A DNA stretch of 64,000 bases from Bryobacteraceae bacterium (GTDB lineage: Bacteria > Acidobacteriota > Terriglobia > Bryobacterales > Bryobacteraceae). This document shows, piece by piece, positions 11,780 to 22,618 of this stretch (its first letter is position 1; every line of letters starts with the position of its first letter). The stretch lies in assembly GCA_025055455.1 (NCBI GenBank), contig JANWXD010000001.1, positions 124,001-188,000 of the forward strand. Reading direction: 5' to 3'. The notes below the pieces were generated by a model. That model made no database searches, was not told the origin of the DNA, and saw only the letters and a list, made by a program, of their open reading frames with translations. A program made the position numbers and the translations under genes.

Positions 11780-11943
11780 GACGGTAGGATAGCGCGGCGC
11801 GGCGGCCGAGGATTGTTTCGGGCACATCGTTACGCCAAAGCTCGCGGTTGTGCGGAAATCTCACACCCATTTACAGGCAGTCGCGCCAACGTGTTGACCC
11901 AGCGAACCAGGCGGGTGGTCGGGCAGGTGCATGGAGCCAAGCG

Positions 11944-14463
11944 ATGCACCTCGCCACGGCGACCGGGCTGGCTTGGCTGCTGCTGTCGAACGAGCGGATC
12001 GCGGCCGAGCAGGCGATTCAGGGCTGGGTCGAGGATGCTACCGGTGCGTCGGTGCCCGGCGCGATCGTGCGAGTAAGCTGCGAGGGCCGCACCGAGGCGC
12101 AAACCCGGACCGATAGCGAGGGCCGCTTTCAACTGCCGCACCCCGGCCGCCGCGGCTGCGAGCTCGAGATTACACACGAGCACTTCCGGCCCGTTTCGCT
12201 CGCCGTGTCACGGCCTTCGGCCGCGCTGCGGATCCGGCTTGAGATCGCCCCGGTGCGGCTGGAGATGACGGTGAGGGGCCAAGCGGCGGAGCTCGACACC
12301 GACCCGTCAGCCAATCAAAACCGGATCGCGCTCGACCGCGATCTGTTGGCGAGCCTGCCGGCGCTCGACCGGGACCCGGTGGCTGCGGCGGCACGCTACC
12401 TCGACCCCGCGCTGGCCGGCGGAGCCACGCTGGTCGTAGACGGGCTGGAGACGCGGCGACTGGGAGTGACGCCGTCCGCTATCCAGGAGGTCCGCATCAA
12501 CCGCAATCCGTATTCGGCGGAGTTCGGCACCCCCGGTCCCGGACGGATCGAGGTGACGACCAACCAAGGCTCGTCCGACCTGCGCGGCTCGCTCACCTTC
12601 GTGTTTCGGGACCACCGGTTAAACGCCCGCAACGCCTTTGCGGCTGAGCGGCCGCCTGAGCAGCGGCGCATCGTGGAAGGCCATGTAACGGGTCCGCTGA
12701 CCCGGGATGGAAAGACGGCATTCCTCGTGAGCGGGGAGCGCGCCGAGCAGGACGAGTGGTCCACGGTGTTCGCGCGCACCGCCGAAGGGCTGGTGAATCA
12801 ACCGGCAGCCCATCCGGAGCGCGAAAGTGAATTCTCCTTCACGGTGCGCCGCGAGCTGGCGGGCGGCGGGGCCATGGGGATCCACTACGATGTGGATCGC
12901 GAAACGGCGGAGGGCGGCGTAGGCGGTTTCGCGCTCCCGGAGGCCGGCTATCGCGATACCGAGCGGGAGCAGGGTCTGCGCTTCGCGTGGCGGGCCGTGG
13001 CCGGCGCCAATGCGTTGCACGAATTCAACGCGCGCTGGGAGTCGGAGGAGAGGGCACGCCGCAGCCGGCTCGCGGGCGCGCCGAAGCGGGTGGTGCTGGA
13101 CGCGTTCACGGCGGGCGGCGCCCAGGACGATTACTCCGAGGAACAGCAGCGGCTGGAATTGGGCTATGTGTTGTCGGCGCTCGGAGGCAGACATTCGATC
13201 CGCACCGGACTTCAGTTCCCGGACTTGGCGCGCTGGAAGGCAGAGGATCGGCGGCTGCGCGAGGGTGTGTTCGTGTTCTCCTCGCTCGAGGAGTTCCGCC
13301 GGGGCCGTGCTCTGTACTTCCAACGGCGCGAGGGAGACGGACGCGCTCGCTTTTGGACCGCGACCGTGGTGGGCTTCGTGCAGGACGACCTTCGAGTGGG
13401 GCGGGACGTCGCCGTGGCTGCGGGGTTGCGCTGGGAAGCTCACCATCAGCCGGGCCGTTATCTGAACCTAGGGCCGCGGCTGGCCGTCGCCTGGGCACCC
13501 CGCCGACGGCTGGTGCTGCGGGCCGGGTCGGGACTCTACTTTGCGCGCGTGCCCGCAGGCTTGGTGCGGGATTCACGGCTGCTCGACGCTTCGCGAATCC
13601 GAGAGATTCTGATGCTGGAGACCGCTTACCCGGAGCCGGCGGGCATTGCCGAGCGCTTGGCCGGCAATCGGCTGCGGCTCGAGCGAGGCCTCCGGCCGCC
13701 GCGATTGTTGCATTCCAGCGCGGGCCTGGAAGCGGAACTCAAGCCGAAGACGGCGCTGACGCTCCATTATTCGGGCGTTCGCGGTTGGGGCCTGTTGCGC
13801 TCACGCGACTTGAACGCGCCGCTTCCGCCATCCTGGGCACGTCCCGATCCCGAGACGGGCGTCTTGCAGCAGATCGAAGGGTCGGCCGCATTGCAGTCGC
13901 ACACGCTGGAAGCCGGGCTGCGCGGGGAACCGGTACCGTGGTTCACAGGTGCGGTCACCTACCAGTGCGGCGGGGCGGAGGATGATACCGACGGTCCGGA
14001 ATCGTTCCCAGCGGACAGTGGGGATCTGCGGGGCGAATGGGGTCCCGCGAGCTTTGATCGTAGGCACCGTTTCCGGGCCTATGGCCGCTTCCGCGCAGGG
14101 CGATGGTTTCAGCTCGGCCTGATCGCAGAGGCCGAATCCGGACGGCCTTACACGTTGACGACCGGCCGAGACGACAATCGTGACGGCAGGGCGCTGGATC
14201 GGCCCCCGGGCGCAAGACGGAACGGACTCCGCGGCCCGGGCAGAGTCACGCTGGACGTGCGGTGGTCGCGCGAGTTCTCGCTGCGGCGAACGAAAGGAGC
14301 AGAGGAACCGCCCTCCATCGAACTGGTCGTGGATGCCTTCAACGTGATGAACCAAGTGAACCCGACGCGTGTGGTAGGCAACCTGAGTTCACCGTTTTTC
14401 GGCCGGCCCGTGGCGGCCGAGGCGTCGAGGAGGCTTCAGCTTTCGCTCGAAATCAAATTCTGA
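11944..14463 (+). CDS. carboxypeptidase-regulatory-domain / TonB-receptor-like outer-membrane protein
   Basis: QAIQGWVEDATGASVPGAIVRVSCEGRTEAQTRTDSEGRFQLP (CarboxypepD_reg-like), YSAEFGTPGPGRIEVTTNQG plug segment, barrel C-terminus. Confidence 0.82.
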   Translation: MHLATATGLAWLLLSNERIAAEQAIQGWVEDATGASVPGAIVRVSCEGRTEAQTRTDSEGRFQLPHPGRRGCELEITHEHFRPVSLAVSRPSAALRIRLEIAPVRLEMTVRGQAAELDTDPSANQNRIALDRDLLASLPALDRDPVAAAARYLDPALAGGATLVVDGLETRRLGVTPSAIQEVRINRNPYSAEFGTPGPGRIEVTTNQGSSDLRGSLTFVFRDHRLNARNAFAAERPPEQRRIVEGHVTGPLTRDGKTAFLVSGERAEQDEWSTVFARTAEGLVNQPAAHPERESEFSFTVRRELAGGGAMGIHYDVDRETAEGGVGGFALPEAGYRDTEREQGLRFAWRAVAGANALHEFNARWESEERARRSRLAGAPKRVVLDAFTAGGAQDDYSEEQQRLELGYVLSALGGRHSIRTGLQFPDLARWKAEDRRLREGVFVFSSLEEFRRGRALYFQRREGDGRARFWTATVVGFVQDDLRVGRDVAVAAGLRWEAHHQPGRYLNLGPRLAVAWAPRRRLVLRAGSGLYFARVPAGLVRDSRLLDASRIREILMLETAYPEPAGIAERLAGNRLRLERGLRPPRLLHSSAGLEAELKPKTALTLHYSGVRGWGLLRSRDLNAPLPPSWARPDPETGVLQQIEGSAALQSHTLEAGLRGEPVPWFTGAVTYQCGGAEDDTDGPESFPADSGDLRGEWGPASFDRRHRFRAYGRFRAGRWFQLGLIAEAESGRPYTLTTGRDDNRDGRALDRPPGARRNGLRGPGRVTLDVRWSREFSLRRTKGAEEPPSIELVVDAFNVMNQVNPTRVVGNLSSPFFGRPVAAEASRRLQLSLEIKF

Positions 14464-14482: not shown

Positions 14483-15082
14483 GTGAAAAGGGCTTGGGTC
14501 GGCGGCGTTGCAGCCTGTCTGCTGGCGGTGAGCTGCGCCGGGGTGGCGGCGCAGCAGGAACGCAAACGCGAACGCAGGCAGGAGGAACGGCTGGAGGAGC
14601 TTGCACGGAAGCTGGCGCGGCGGCAGGCGCAGGCGGGCGCCACCCCGGAACATAGGTTTCTGCACGCGCGCGCCGCGGCCATTCTCGAGCGCGCGCGCCA
14701 GACCCGAGACGACGCTTACGTTTTCGACCGGCTCGTGCGGGCGGCGGACGATCTGCTCGAGGCGAGCGAGGAGCTTTTCGAGGCCCGCCAGCCGGAACCG
14801 CCGCCCACGGAGGCCGAGCAGCGCGAAACGGCGCTCGATTTGCAGCGCTGCTACTTCCGCGTGCGCCAGGCGGATTACTTTGCGGAGATGAGCCGGGAAC
14901 CGGAGGCGGGACTGTACGTCCAGCACGCCCGCAGCCTTTACCAGCAAGCTCGGAGCGCCTACGACGGGCGGCAGTATCGGAGGGCGGGCAAGCTGGGGGA
15001 AGCGGCTGAAGAGATCGTGAGCGCGCTCGAGAAGCTGGCGCAGGCGGCCGTTCGGATCCCGGAGCCGCCGAAGCTGGAGTAA
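14483..15082 (+). CDS. secreted charged/helical hypothetical protein
   Basis: GTG start; signal peptide KRAWVGGVAACLLAVSCAGVAAQ; Arg/Glu-rich helical body; overlaps the histidine kinase start by 1 nt (TAATG). Confidence 0.7.
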   Translation: MKRAWVGGVAACLLAVSCAGVAAQQERKRERRQEERLEELARKLARRQAQAGATPEHRFLHARAAAILERARQTRDDAYVFDRLVRAADDLLEASEELFEARQPEPPPTEAEQRETALDLQRCYFRVRQADYFAEMSREPEAGLYVQHARSLYQQARSAYDGRQYRRAGKLGEAAEEIVSALEKLAQAAVRIPEPPKLE

Positions 15083-16548
15083 TGGCTGTGCCGTGGCCGG
15101 TCCCGGCGAGTTTTCGTGCTCAGATTTCGATCATCACGGCGGCCTCGGGAGCGACGCTAGCTCTGGCGTTCCTGTTGGTGCAGGATGTGATCCGGGGCAC
15201 GCAGGACACGCTCGTCGAGGAAGCGCGCCTACAGACCGGCGCGGCCTGTCGCGAGTTGAGCGAGCAGTTCCGCGACCGTCTCGCCTACGGCGGCGAGGCG
15301 CTGGCTGAACTGCCGTTCGAGGCGCAGGATCTGTCGCTGCGCGGCTTGGCGTCGGCGGTGCTTCGTTCCTACGAAGGGATGCAAGGCGGATTCCATGTAC
15401 CGCCGGGAAAGATTGCGGGCTATGCCTTCCCCACGGCCGCGCGCCCTCGGCAACTGGCGGATCCGGAGAAGGCGCTGGTCGAGGCCGCCGTACGGCGCGC
15501 CCGGGACCGGAAGATTCCGGCGGCCGAGACGGCTTCCTGGAACGGAGACCTGGCCGTAGTCACCGCCGCACCGGTCGAAAACGGCCAGGCGGTAGCGTGG
15601 GCACTCAAACGGTTCTCCTGGGTGCGGGAAGCAACGCCCGGACGGCGCGCCTGGTGGATCGGAGCGCTGGCGCTGTCAGCGACCTTGGGAATCGCCGGCA
15701 CGTTGTCGGTGTGGCTGTTTCTGCGCTCCGGAGTACAAACCATCCGCGCCGGTCTGCGGCGGCTCGAGCTGGACTTTGCACACCGGCTGCCGGCCATCCC
15801 CGGGGAGCTCGGTGAGATTGCGCAGGCGGTCAATCAAATGGCCGAGCGCCGTGCGGCGCTCGAAGCGGAAGTGCGGCGCCAGGACCGGCTGGCGGTTCTG
15901 GGTCGGCTGGTGGCTGCCGTGGCGCATGAGATTCGCAACCCTCTCAACTCCCTTCGGCTCACCCTGGAGCTGTTGCGGCGCCGCATGGACAAAGGCGCAG
16001 CCCGGCCCGAGGAGATGGACGCGGCCGTGGCTCAGGTGGACCGCCTGGACGCGATCCTGACGCGCTTGCTGACCTTCGGGCGGGCAGCACCCGCCGAGCG
16101 GCGCCGCCAACCTGTCAAGCCGGTGGTCGAGGAAGCGGTGCGTCTAGCGGCGGAGCCGGCGCGGACCAGAGGCGTGGAAGTCCGGCTGGAGACGGCGCCG
16201 GCGGATCTTACGGCGGAACTCGACGCGGCGCAGATCCAGCAGGTCCTGCTGAACCTGCTGTTGAACGCGGTGGAAGCGTCGCCGCCGGGGCAGACCGTAG
16301 AGGTGCGGTGCCAGGCGCATGACGGGGCGGTGGTGATCTTGGTGACCGATCATGGCCCCGGGATTCCGGAGTCGGCGCAGCCGTACGTCTTCGACGCTTT
16401 TTTCACGACCAAGCCGGACGGAACGGGGCTGGGCCTTGCGGTATCGCGGGAGATTGTGAGCCATCACGGAGGCTCGCTGGATTTCGTCACGGGCCCGGAG
16501 GGAACGACGTTCCGCCTGCGCCTTCCCCAACAGGAGCACGCCGCATGA
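15082..16548 (+). CDS. membrane sensor histidine kinase (HAMP + HisKA + HATPase)
   Basis: VAHEIRNPLNSLRLTLELL H-box; LLNLLLNAVEASPPG N-box; VTDHGPGIP; FFTTKPDGTGLGLAVSREIVSHHGG; two TM segments. Confidence 0.93.
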   Translation: MAVPWPVPASFRAQISIITAASGATLALAFLLVQDVIRGTQDTLVEEARLQTGAACRELSEQFRDRLAYGGEALAELPFEAQDLSLRGLASAVLRSYEGMQGGFHVPPGKIAGYAFPTAARPRQLADPEKALVEAAVRRARDRKIPAAETASWNGDLAVVTAAPVENGQAVAWALKRFSWVREATPGRRAWWIGALALSATLGIAGTLSVWLFLRSGVQTIRAGLRRLELDFAHRLPAIPGELGEIAQAVNQMAERRAALEAEVRRQDRLAVLGRLVAAVAHEIRNPLNSLRLTLELLRRRMDKGAARPEEMDAAVAQVDRLDAILTRLLTFGRAAPAERRRQPVKPVVEEAVRLAAEPARTRGVEVRLETAPADLTAELDAAQIQQVLLNLLLNAVEASPPGQTVEVRCQAHDGAVVILVTDHGPGIPESAQPYVFDAFFTTKPDGTGLGLAVSREIVSHHGGSLDFVTGPEGTTFRLRLPQQEHAA

Positions 16549-17906
16549 TACGGAAGGCACGCGTGCTGGTGGCCGAAGACGAGGTGCAGGCCCGGGAGTC
16601 GCTGCGCGCGCTGCTCGAGGAGGAAGGCTATGAAGTGGTCACCGCGGCGGATGGCGCCGAGGCGCTGCGGCTCACCGCGGAACAGGCCGTGGATGCGATT
16701 CTGCTGGACATCCGGCTGCCGGGAAAGGACGGCCTGGCGGTGTTGCGGGAGCTGCGCAACGAGTCGCTGCCGCCTGCGGTGCTGGTCATGACGGCCTATG
16801 GGAGCAGCGCCGTGGCCATCGAGGCCATGGCGCTGGGCGCCTTCGACTACCTCACCAAGCCGGTGCACTTCGACGAACTGCGGATCCAACTGGCGCGGGC
16901 GATCGAGAACCGCCGCCGCGTCGAAGAACTGGAAGCGTACCGAGGCCGTGAGGCGGCAGCCCATCCCGCGGAGATGGTGGGCCGGTCCCCGGCGATGCAG
17001 CGGCTGTACAAGCTCATCGGTCAAGTGGCGCCCACGGATTCGACCGTGCTGATTGTGGGGGAATCCGGGACGGGGAAGGAACTGGTGGCGGAGGCGATTC
17101 ACCGGCACAGCGCTCGGGCAGGGCGCAGGCTGGTCAAGGTCAACTGTGCTGGAATTCCGGAGACGTTGCTGGAGGCGGAGCTGTTCGGTTACGAGCGAGG
17201 CGCCTTCACGGGAGCGATCCAGCGCCGCACGGGGAGGTTCGAGTTTGCTGACGGCGGAACCATCTTTCTGGACGAGATCGGCGAATTGAGCCCGGCGACG
17301 CAGGCCAAGTTGCTGCGGGTGCTGCAAGATCGGACCATTGAACGCCTAGGCTCCAACGTGCCGATTCCGCTGGACGTGCGCGTGCTGGCAGCGACGAATC
17401 AGAACCTGGAGCGGGCCGTCGAGCAGGGCCGCTTTCGCGAGGATCTGTATTACCGACTCAAAGTGATGGTGTTGCGGGTGCCGCCGCTGCGCGAGCGGAT
17501 GGAGGACCTGCCCGAGCTGGCCGAGTTCCTGTTGCGACGCTGCGCCGCGCGGTCGAAATTGCCGGTTCCAACGCTCTCACCAGAAGCGCTGGCGGCGCTC
17601 CGCGCGCGCTCCTGGCCTGGCAACGTGCGGGAACTGGAGCATTGTCTGGAACGGGCGCTGGTGCTCAGCCGTGGCGGGATCATCCTCGCCGAGCATGTGG
17701 AAGAGAAAGTGGGGTTGCAGCCGGCGGATCCGTTTTCGGCGATCCCGCTCGAAGAAGGCATGCACGAGGCGGTGCGCAAGCTGGAACGGTCCATGATCGT
17801 GCGGGCGCTGGCGGCCAGCGGGGGCAACCGGACGCGGGCCGCGGAGCTGCTGAAGATCAACCGGCGGCTCCTGTACGACAAGCTGCGGGAGTTCGGGTTG
17901 GAGTAA
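16545..17906 (+). CDS. sigma-54-dependent Fis-family response regulator (NtrC/ZraR type)
   Basis: Receiver VLVAEDE...LLDIRLPGKDG...LTKPVHFDE; GESGTGKELVAEAIHRHSAR; GAFTGAI; C-terminal HTH NRTRAAELLKINRRLLYDKLREF. Confidence 0.95.
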   Translation: MIRKARVLVAEDEVQARESLRALLEEEGYEVVTAADGAEALRLTAEQAVDAILLDIRLPGKDGLAVLRELRNESLPPAVLVMTAYGSSAVAIEAMALGAFDYLTKPVHFDELRIQLARAIENRRRVEELEAYRGREAAAHPAEMVGRSPAMQRLYKLIGQVAPTDSTVLIVGESGTGKELVAEAIHRHSARAGRRLVKVNCAGIPETLLEAELFGYERGAFTGAIQRRTGRFEFADGGTIFLDEIGELSPATQAKLLRVLQDRTIERLGSNVPIPLDVRVLAATNQNLERAVEQGRFREDLYYRLKVMVLRVPPLRERMEDLPELAEFLLRRCAARSKLPVPTLSPEALAALRARSWPGNVRELEHCLERALVLSRGGIILAEHVEEKVGLQPADPFSAIPLEEGMHEAVRKLERSMIVRALAASGGNRTRAAELLKINRRLLYDKLREFGLE

Positions 17907-17985
17907 AGGGGGCCGATTGGGGCTGGGGCGCGCTCGAGCTGCGCAAAACTAGAAAATCAGGTATGATTATCCCTGGAGTCGCCCC

Positions 17986-18219
17986 ATGAAATGCGTGCTC
18001 TTAGCCTTGCTGCTGGCGGCCGCTCCGCCCTGGAGTGTGGCGCGGGCGCACTGCGCGCACCAACATCGGCACCACTGCCCCCATTGCGACCATCGCCCGC
18101 ACTGCCGCTGCGAGGATTGCAAGCCGACCCGCACGGACAAACGAGAGAAGGGAGACCAAGCTCTCCGAGAGCCGGCGAGTAAAAACGCTCAAGGCGGCTC
18201 ACAGAGCCAGAACCGTTAG
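17986..18219 (+). CDS. small secreted His/Cys-rich protein, putative metal-binding
   Basis: MKCVLLALLLAAAPPWSVARA signal peptide with A-x-A site; HCAHQHRHHCPHCDHRPHCRCEDC (8 His, 6 Cys in 24 aa); GGAG 7 nt before ATG; TATGAT at 17962. Confidence 0.6.
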   Translation: MKCVLLALLLAAAPPWSVARAHCAHQHRHHCPHCDHRPHCRCEDCKPTRTDKREKGDQALREPASKNAQGGSQSQNR

Positions 18220-18329: not shown

Positions 18330-19406
18330 TCAGCGGCGCGCCTTGGGGGCGGGCTTGAGAGCCCGCTCGATGGCTTCCAGAGCTATGGGGGCCATGACGC
18401 GATAGCCCTTGGCGTTGGGGTGCAAACCGTCGTCGGAGAGGCTGGCCTCGAGCATGCCCGCCGAGTCCACCATCTTGGAGTAATAATCCACATAAACGAA
18501 GTTACGTTGTTTGCAAAATCGTTCCAGCCACTGATTCAGGGCGCGAATCGTGGCGGGTGGGCGACGCCGCGTCTGCTCGTACTGCGGGTCGGCATCCTTG
18601 TGATAGTCGCTGACGGGCAACAGGGATGCGAATAACGGCCGGATACCATGAGCCACCGCTAAGTCAGCGATCATCGTGAGATTGTTCTGGATGACATTCA
18701 CGGGCACGCCGCGCGCAATGTCGTTGGTCCCCGCCAGGATCAGTACGGCCGCAGGTTTGAGGTCCAGCACGTCCGCCTTCATGCGGCCCAGCATCTCCCC
18801 GGTGATTTGACCGCTGATGCCCCGGTTGACGAAATCGCGGTCCGGAAAGTACTCGTGAAGCCGCCAGCCGTCGGTGATGGAGTCGCCCAGGAAGACGACG
18901 CGCGGCTTGCCCGGCGCCGGCGGTCCGAGTTTGGCGTTGGCTTCGGCATAGCGGCGGAGATTGTCTCGATCGGGATTGCGGAGCTGGGCCTCTTTGCGTT
19001 CGAGCAAGGCCTGGAAGTGGGCCTCGAGGCGTTCGGCCGCTTCTCGCAGCTCGAGAAACTGCCGGCGGGCTTCTTCCGGAAGGGGGAACGGCTTGGGGGC
19101 GGCGTCGGCCACGGCGAGGTAGGCGCGGAGATTATGGAGAAAGCGGTAGGTCAGCGCGGCGTTCTGCGCCGCGCCTGGCGTATCGCGCATGGTGGCGAGC
19201 ACTTGCCGGGCGTTTTCGGCCAGGGGCGCCCCGGCGCGCCCCAGCTCCGGCGCCGCCACGCGCGTGGAATCCATGCGCTGGACGGCGCGGTCGAGCAGCG
19301 CGAGAACGTCGCGGTTCGGGAGCCAGGCATTTTGCTGGGCGCGCGCGGCGGACCACGGCCGCACGGCCAGCAGAATGCCGAAAACCAGGCCGATGCGGAG
19401 CGCCAT
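18330..19406 (-). CDS. SGNH/GDSL-family hydrolase, secreted
   Basis: VVFLGDSITDGW, FVNRGISGQITGEML, LILAGTNDIARGV, DDGLHPNAKGYRVMA; signal peptide; GGGGAGG before ATG. Confidence 0.9.
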   Translation of the reverse strand: MALRIGLVFGILLAVRPWSAARAQQNAWLPNRDVLALLDRAVQRMDSTRVAAPELGRAGAPLAENARQVLATMRDTPGAAQNAALTYRFLHNLRAYLAVADAAPKPFPLPEEARRQFLELREAAERLEAHFQALLERKEAQLRNPDRDNLRRYAEANAKLGPPAPGKPRVVFLGDSITDGWRLHEYFPDRDFVNRGISGQITGEMLGRMKADVLDLKPAAVLILAGTNDIARGVPVNVIQNNLTMIADLAVAHGIRPLFASLLPVSDYHKDADPQYEQTRRRPPATIRALNQWLERFCKQRNFVYVDYYSKMVDSAGMLEASLSDDGLHPNAKGYRVMAPIALEAIERALKPAPKARR

Positions 19407-19552: not shown

Positions 19553-22500
19553 ATGGCCATCCACCTCGGGCTGGACATCGGAGCGGTCAGTCTCAAGCTG
19601 GCTGCCTTGGGCCGCGCCGAGGACCGGGCCGTGCTGGCCGCGGCGGCACGAAAAGGTTCCACGTTCCGGCTGCTGGAATCGAACGGTCGGCCGCTCGTGG
19701 TTTCCGAATACCGGCGGATCGCCGGCAGTCCCATCCAGGCCACATTTGACCTGCTGCAAGAGTTTTACGAGTGCGTTCCGGAGCAGGAAATCGAAGGCAT
19801 CCGGATCACGGGCTCGGGCAGCCGCACCATCGCCCGCATCCTGGGCCTCTGTATCGAGAACGAGTTCAAGGCCATCGCCCGCATGGTTTCGTCCTTCTAT
19901 CCGCAGGTGCGGACGATCTTCGAGATCGGGGGCGAGAGTTCGAAGTACCTGCGTCTGGAGCCGCAGCCGGAAACAGGGGACTGCGGCATCGCGGACTACG
20001 ACCGCAGCGGGGAGTGCGCGGCCGGCACCGGTTCGTTCCTCGACCAACAAGCGCTGCGCATGAACTATTCCGTCGAAGAGGTGGGGGCGGTGGCGGGCGC
20101 CGCCGGCTGCGCGGCGCGGATCGCGGGACGCTGCTCGGTGTTCGCCAAGTCCGACATGATCCACGCGCAACAAAAAGGCTATACGCCGGGGGAAATCCTG
20201 CGAGGCCTTTGCGACGCGGTGGCGCGGAACTACAAGGCCAGCGTCGTGAAAGGCCGGCCGGTCCTTCCTCCGGTCGCCTTCATCGGGGCCGTTTCGCAAA
20301 ACAGCGGCGTGGTGCGGGCGTTGCGCGAAGCCTTCGGACTCCAAGAGCCGGAGTTGTTTGTTCCGGAACTGTACGCCTGGTGCGGCGCGATCGGCGCCGC
20401 CCTCCTCGAAGCGGGTGCACGGCGCAAGCGCTCCTTCGGCGACATCCACCGCCTCCACCAGCAGGAGGCCGAAAGCCGCCCGCGCGATGCCGTGCCGCTT
20501 TCGATGGCGAATGTGGTGCTGCTGCGGGACCGGATAGTGCCCTATGCGCCCCCGCCGGGAAACGGCCCCATACCCGCGTACCTGGGAATTGACATCGGCT
20601 CGGTCTCGACCAACCTGGCAGCGGTGGACGAGTTCGGCCAGGTAATCCATGACGTGTATTTGCGCACCGCCGGCCGGCCCATCGAGGCCGTGCAGCAGGG
20701 TCTGCGCGAAATCCGGGAGCGCTGGGGTCATCGGCTGGAAATCCGCGGCGTGGGAACCACCGGATCGGGGCGCGAACTGATCGCCGAATTGGTCGGTGCC
20801 GATGTGGTCAACGACGAGATCACCGCCCACAAGACCGGCGCCATGCACGTGAGCACGACCCTCGGCCGCGAGACGGTGGACACCATCTTCGAAATCGGCG
20901 GGCAGGACTCGAAATTCATCGCCATCGAAAACGGAGTCGTGGTGGACTTTGCCATGAACGAGGCGTGCGCGGCCGGCACCGGGTCCTTCCTAGAAGAGCA
21001 GGCGGAAAAGCTCGGCGTCAGCATCCAGGGCGAATTTGCCCGGCTGGCGCTGTCGGCGCCGGCCCCGACGCGGCTCGGCGAGCGCTGCACGGTGTTCATG
21101 GAGCGTGACCTAACAGCTTGGCTCCACAAAGGCGAGACCGTACCGAACCTGCTCGCCGGCCTGGCCTATTCCATCGCACTTAATTACCTCAACCGGGTGG
21201 TGCGGGGCCGGCGCATCGGTAACGTGATTTACTTCCAGGGAGGCACGGCCTACAACGATGCCGTGGCGGCGGCCTTCGCTGGGCTGCTCGGAAAGAAGAT
21301 CACCGTGCCACCGTACAACGGCGTTATGGGGGCGATCGGCATGGCGCTCATCGCGCGCCAGTGGCATCTGGCCACCGGCGCCAGGACGAAGTTCCGCGGC
21401 TACGATTTGTCGCGGCTGGAAATGAAGACGCGGGACTTTGTATGCAAAGGCTGCTCGAACCACTGCGACATTAAAGAGTTCACGATCGAGGGGCAAAAAA
21501 GTTACTGGGGTGATAAGTGTTCGGATCGGTTTCGCAAGCCCTCGGCGACGGGAAGGAAGCCCGTGATCGAAGATCTGTTCGAGTTCCGCGAGAAACTGGT
21601 GGCGGAACTGACGGCGGACCGCGCGACGAGGGGGCCGCGCATCGGAATTCCCCGCGCCATGTCCACCTTCGAGCGGCAACCCTTTTGGCACCGCTATTTC
21701 ACGGAACTGGGCTGGGAGGTGGTGCTTTCTCCTCCCACGGATCCGAAGATCGCCGCTCGGGGCGTCGAGCTGGCTCTGGCGCAGCCCTGTTATCCGGTGC
21801 AGGTGGCCCACGGCCATGTGGCGGCGCTGGCGGAGATGGACGTGGACTACATTCTGGCGCCGAACATGCTCGACGCCGAGTCCGAGGACGACCGGGTTGC
21901 CCACTTCTGCCCGTGGAATCAGACGCTGCCGTTCGTGCTCCGCACCGCGCCGGGTTTGGAGGAACACGCCCACAAATTTCTGATTCCGACGATGCACTTC
22001 CAGCTGGGGCGCGAGTACGTCAAGAAGGCCTTGGCCGAGGTCGTGCGGCGGCTGGGCGTTTCGCGGCGCGCCAGCGACCGGGCCGTGGACGCCGCCTACG
22101 CCGTCCAGCGGCAGTTTCAGGACCGCCTGCTGGAGGCCGGGCGGCAGGCCCTGGAAACGCTGGACCGCTGGGGCGAGCCGGGTCTGATCCTCGTAGGCCG
22201 GGGCTATAACATCTACGACCGCAACGTGAACTGCGACATCCCGCGCAAGTTGAGGCACCGCTACGGCGCTAATGTGATCCCGATCGATTTTCTCGTCACA
22301 GGACGGGAACCGGTCAACGACCTACATCCGAACATGTATTGGTCGTCCGGCCGCAAGATTCTGGCGGTCGCGCGCCTGGCCGCCTCGCGTCCCAACTTAC
22401 ACTTGATTTACATTTCGAACTTCAAATGCGGGCCGGATTCCTACATCAAGCATTTCGCCCGCGAGGCGGCGGGGGCACCTTATCTGGTGCTGCAGTTTGA

Positions 22501-22618
22501 CGGGCACGGCAACGACGCCGGCTACATGACCCGCTGCGAAGCGTACCTGGACAGCAAAGGGATCCTGCGCTGTTATCGGAGTGTGGGCGCCGCGCACGCC
22601 GCCGGAGGGCCGCAATGA
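19553..22618 (+). CDS. tandem BadF/BadG/BcrA/BcrD (ASKHA) acyl-CoA dehydratase activase fused to DUF2229/2-hydroxyacyl-CoA-dehydratase-like domain
   Basis: Two ASKHA modules: LGLDIGAVSLKL...ECAAGTGSFLDQQA...GRCSVF and LGIDIGSVSTNL...ACAAGTGSFLEEQA...ERCTVF; then CKGCSNHCD...DKC and RIGIPRAMSTFERQPFWHRYFTELGWEVVLSP. Confidence 0.88.
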   Translation: MAIHLGLDIGAVSLKLAALGRAEDRAVLAAAARKGSTFRLLESNGRPLVVSEYRRIAGSPIQATFDLLQEFYECVPEQEIEGIRITGSGSRTIARILGLCIENEFKAIARMVSSFYPQVRTIFEIGGESSKYLRLEPQPETGDCGIADYDRSGECAAGTGSFLDQQALRMNYSVEEVGAVAGAAGCAARIAGRCSVFAKSDMIHAQQKGYTPGEILRGLCDAVARNYKASVVKGRPVLPPVAFIGAVSQNSGVVRALREAFGLQEPELFVPELYAWCGAIGAALLEAGARRKRSFGDIHRLHQQEAESRPRDAVPLSMANVVLLRDRIVPYAPPPGNGPIPAYLGIDIGSVSTNLAAVDEFGQVIHDVYLRTAGRPIEAVQQGLREIRERWGHRLEIRGVGTTGSGRELIAELVGADVVNDEITAHKTGAMHVSTTLGRETVDTIFEIGGQDSKFIAIENGVVVDFAMNEACAAGTGSFLEEQAEKLGVSIQGEFARLALSAPAPTRLGERCTVFMERDLTAWLHKGETVPNLLAGLAYSIALNYLNRVVRGRRIGNVIYFQGGTAYNDAVAAAFAGLLGKKITVPPYNGVMGAIGMALIARQWHLATGARTKFRGYDLSRLEMKTRDFVCKGCSNHCDIKEFTIEGQKSYWGDKCSDRFRKPSATGRKPVIEDLFEFREKLVAELTADRATRGPRIGIPRAMSTFERQPFWHRYFTELGWEVVLSPPTDPKIAARGVELALAQPCYPVQVAHGHVAALAEMDVDYILAPNMLDAESEDDRVAHFCPWNQTLPFVLRTAPGLEEHAHKFLIPTMHFQLGREYVKKALAEVVRRLGVSRRASDRAVDAAYAVQRQFQDRLLEAGRQALETLDRWGEPGLILVGRGYNIYDRNVNCDIPRKLRHRYGANVIPIDFLVTGREPVNDLHPNMYWSSGRKILAVARLAASRPNLHLIYISNFKCGPDSYIKHFAREAAGAPYLVLQFDGHGNDAGYMTRCEAYLDSKGILRCYRSVGAAHAAGGPQ

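Follow-up and report, generated by a model that had tools for sequence, protein, structure and literature searches.

Periplasmic metal proteins belong to metal-responsive two-component systems elsewhere: zraP is under the control of ZraSR (PMC5391612), and in Synechocystis copMRS encodes the periplasmic copper-binding protein CopM together with CopRS (PMC4335983). Two further kinds of exported protein have been described: CzcI, a periplasmic modulator of CzcCBA (PMC10127602), and the MNIO-modified bufferin precursors, which comprise a Sec signal and a Cys-containing core (PMC12452194). In this study, we analysed a 77-residue open reading frame (ORF 17986-18219) that lies behind a two-component system in a stretch of 64,000 nucleotides (the window, to which all positions refer). 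The reading we favour, with somewhat better than even confidence, is that the frame is a real gene, restricted to its lineage, whose product is a small Sec-exported metal-chelating peptide; it would probably have a promoter of its own and would not form a conserved part of the module upstream.

The reading frame and its surroundings

The region comprises the following features.

11944-14463, + strand: receptor with CarboxypepD_reg and an outer-membrane beta-barrel (domain matches, relatives)
14483-15082, + strand: secreted six-helix protein that recurs with the kinase and regulator (relatives, structure model)
15082-16548, + strand: membrane histidine kinase with HisKA, HATPase_c and a weak HAMP match (domain matches)
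16545-17906, + strand: sigma54 response regulator with Response_reg, Sigma54_activat and HTH_8 (domain matches)
17940-17985, + strand: A+T-rich stretch with TATGAT (17962-17967) and GGAG (17975-17978), a candidate own promoter and ribosome-binding site with no recognisable -35
17986-18219, + strand: His/Cys-rich ORF of 77 amino acids, predicted to be exported (ORF read; composition, codon and shuffle tests)
17986-18048, + strand: signal-peptide-like segment MKCVLLALLLAAAPPWSVARA, with possible cleavage between ARA and H (sequence and rule-based score)
18049-18120, + strand: His/Cys cluster HCAHQHRHHCPHCDHRPHCRCEDC, 8 His and 6 Cys (composition, chance tests)
18121-18216, + strand: charged low-complexity tail with background-like codon usage and low model confidence (codon score, structure model)
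18330-19406, - strand: convergent GDSL-type hydrolase downstream of the ORF

The translation of the ORF reads, in order, MKCVLLALLLAAAPPWSVARA-HCAHQHRHHCPHCDHRPHCRCEDC-KPTRTDKREKGDQALREPASKNAQGGSQSQNR, and the cluster occupies residues 22-45, so that 14 of these 24 residues are His or Cys. The original prediction had described this frame, its signal-like N-terminus and its cluster, and its coordinates and translation proved correct on re-reading, as did the positions of TATGAT and of the GGAG 7 nt before the ATG. The gap it put at about 80 nt after the regulator is 79 nt by coordinates, counted from the regulator stop (17906) to the ATG, and its order of receptor-like protein, secreted helical protein, kinase and regulator agrees with the annotation from domain matches and a structure model.

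The His/Cys cluster is not a product of chance. In 60 simulated 64-kb sequences (3.84 Mb) that kept the dinucleotide transitions of the window, the maximum number of His and Cys per 24 stop-free codons lay between 6 and 9, was usually 7-8 and reached 11 once, against 14 in ORF 17986-18219. Of the 11,253 ORFs with 40 or more amino acids in the 1.55 Mb of DNA scanned, the next densest has 11. Within the DNA scanned, comparable density was met elsewhere only in a CATTGTCTT microsatellite of another genome, and the repeat check found no repeat beneath the His/Cys stretch of the ORF; a search of 396 genomes for the pattern HCxHCxHxxHC likewise returned only the ORF and the CATTGTCTT microsatellite. 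The frame also passes a simple rule for signal peptides, which asks for a positive N-region, then a 10-residue hydrophobic core and an A-x-A-like site; 5 of 4,383 off-frame ORFs pass it (~0.1%). Its codon bias is +0.057 bits per codon over the whole length, with +0.17 in the signal segment, +0.16 in the His/Cys part and -0.09 in the tail, while four competing overlapping ORFs all score negatively (-0.13 to -0.41). The whole-ORF value is weak, falling in the lower quarter of gene pieces and at the 75th-95th percentile of off-frame ORFs. Antisense coding, in the form of a hydrophobic peptide opposite the cluster, was considered and is disfavoured by codon use. Because the cluster exceeds chance, the signal rule is rarely passed and the codon usage is weakly coding, ORF 17986-18219 is probably a real gene; in our judgement it is quite likely to be coding at least through the His/Cys part. 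A single-sequence structure prediction was uninformative (mean pLDDT 56) and too poor for a structure search.

No homologue of the ORF at useful significance was found in its own genome (apart from itself), in 60 relatives, in 237 family genomes, in a 396-genome phylum sample, or among plasmids, viral contigs and PDB sequences. No congeneric genome was found among the relatives searched. Weak matches arose at E values of ~1e-4 to 1e-3, and all those inspected were off-frame or unrelated: in the relative G059 the match overlaps, in another frame, a longer ORF resembling a cation transporter, and the matches in L133-L137 and L138/L139 fall in unrelated ORFs or off-frame. The lack of a detectable homologue in any set searched, the background-like codon use of the tail and the weak overall coding score are what one would expect if the frame were a chance ORF, non-coding or never translated, lying where two transcription units converge. 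We regard this as unlikely, however, since the His/Cys density was never neared by shuffles or by other non-repetitive DNA scanned and the cluster coincides with a signal-like start, an ATG and a GGAG.

Just before the ORF the G+C content falls to 0.47, alongside the -10-like hexamer and the GGAG, and a promoter of its own within this A+T-rich gap probably drives the frame. A sigma70 promoter scan ahead of the ORF yielded no passing candidate, and a search of Rfam gave no match. The best -24/-12 match before the ORF agrees at 7 of 12 consensus positions, a figure from a consensus scan only, with operon read-through possible.

The upstream module and its link to the reading frame

The better-conserved lead in this region is the upstream module itself. 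Its secreted helical protein is found in 14 other family genomes, where the kinase and regulator follow in every case (14/14) and the receptor precedes it, as in the window, in five. A structure model gives the helical protein six helices (pLDDT 86). No PDB match to it fell below E = 0.09, it reached the cut-off of no Pfam or NCBIfam family, and it has no LTXXQ/metal-resistance Pfam match; its conserved core is L-x-x-x-YF. The periplasmic part of the kinase carries a conserved LSLRG...VLRSYPGVEGG motif, and among the relatives compared neither this part nor the helical protein has conserved His/Cys sites. Kinase and regulator match AtoS/AtoC best, with ZraS/ZraR matches well below cut-off. Near the receptor start, sigma54 -24/-12-like sites agree with the consensus at 10 of 12 positions in three relatives (L021, L022 and L121) and at 8 of 12 at window position 11916, so that the operon may be under the control of the module it encodes.

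The DNA after the regulator could be compared over at least 1.1 kb in 12 of 14 orthologous clusters, two contigs ending too early. None of these 12 has a His/Cys ORF after the regulator; the highest His and Cys count per 24 residues among short forward ORFs starting within 600 nt of it is 7, and the gap DNA is not alignable among relatives. The module thus exists without the small protein. The original prediction had named missing linkage to the two-component system in other genomes as a refuting result, and no readable cluster shows such linkage. That prediction had proposed a metal buffer or sensor accessory of a metal-responsive module: a small exported metal-binding protein is still the best reading of the ORF, but the 12 clusters give no support for placing it together with the two-component system in one metal-responsive module. 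The flanking genes examined encode a URO-D-family protein, an amidohydrolase, the GDSL-type hydrolase and a BadF/BcrAD-type CoA-enzyme activase, and none is a metal transporter. At window positions 19553-22618 lies a 1021-residue BcrAD_BadFG/DUF2229 protein of the 2-hydroxyacyl-CoA dehydratase activase type, followed by a 429-residue ORF with no Pfam match.

The frame might still encode an accessory of the kinase and regulator, a metal buffer or signal modulator that is a non-homologous counterpart of ZraP and was recently added in this lineage. Its strand is that of the regulator, no terminator was detected in the short gap between them, and the precedent of periplasmic metal proteins in other metal-responsive systems would be in keeping with such a role. 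We nevertheless consider it improbable, given the readable clusters that lack the ORF, the want of conserved His/Cys in the kinase periplasmic region and the helical protein, the poor -24/-12 match and the absence of a metal-transport gene from the flanking genes examined. We also consider it improbable that the frame encodes a new exported His/Cys metal buffer, specific to this lineage and recently recruited beside the conserved module, that feeds a metal signal into it. The sigma54 response regulator probably stands functionally outside the finding.

As no relative of the ORF was found and the module occurs in relatives without such a neighbour, ORF 17986-18219 probably encodes a species-specific metal-binding peptide and not a part of the signalling system. 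A lineage-restricted, Sec-exported peptide of this kind would be cleaved near A21 to leave 56 mostly disordered residues, the first 24 of which would offer 14 His/Cys ligands and could chelate one or more thiophilic or borderline metal ions (Zn, Cu or Ni). The composition makes metal binding plausible, and the mature peptide may serve as a metal buffer or scavenger, either within the periplasm or extracellularly. If translated, it would be one more orphan among the small exported metal-chelating peptides missed by family databases, and would show that a striking composition beside a two-component system need not imply functional linkage.

Comparison with described metal-binding proteins

The locus resembles ZraP/ZraSR in that a candidate for exported metal binding is encoded close to a membrane kinase and a regulator of the sigma54 type. 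It differs in that there is no sequence resemblance, no conserved linkage and, by consensus scan, no sigma54-type site before the ORF, for which no Pfam family, of the metal-resistance/LTXXQ kind or any other, was found. The CxCxxC spacing within CRCEDC and the small, Cys-rich character of the peptide presumably resemble the bacterial metallothioneins SmtA/BmtA, from which it differs in its signal-peptide-like start and dominance of His; Pfam returned no family at all, metallothioneins included, up to E = 10 for the whole ORF, the cluster or the first 49 residues.

It is very improbable that the frame encodes a bufferin-like RiPP precursor (a metal-binding modified peptide) or a CzcI-like modulator of a metal-efflux pump: MNIO-modified bufferin precursors are laid out with a Sec-type signal before a core that contains Cys (PMC12452194), and the sole NCBIfam match, a weak one over residues 3-60, is CzcI-like (NF045615, E = 0.0023), but PF05114 (MNIO) has no match in the 98.75% complete own genome while two control genomes were positive, the CzcI score is 18.4 bits against a cut-off of 100, and the ORF is not beside a czc pump, the nearest RND pump gene found on the contig being ~22 kb away. 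Like CzcI, the predicted product is small and exported; like the bufferins, it would chelate metal, although its His outnumber its Cys. None of the sequence tests run places ORF 17986-18219 with ZraP, CzcI, the metallothioneins or the bufferins.

CopM, too, is an exported metal-binding protein encoded beside a two-component system. It is larger (20 kDa when mature), has been described in terms of its Met and His residues and has a functional linkage to its system, which for ORF 17986-18219 is unsupported. The likeness of the predicted peptide to exported chelators such as CopM would be an analogy of composition only.
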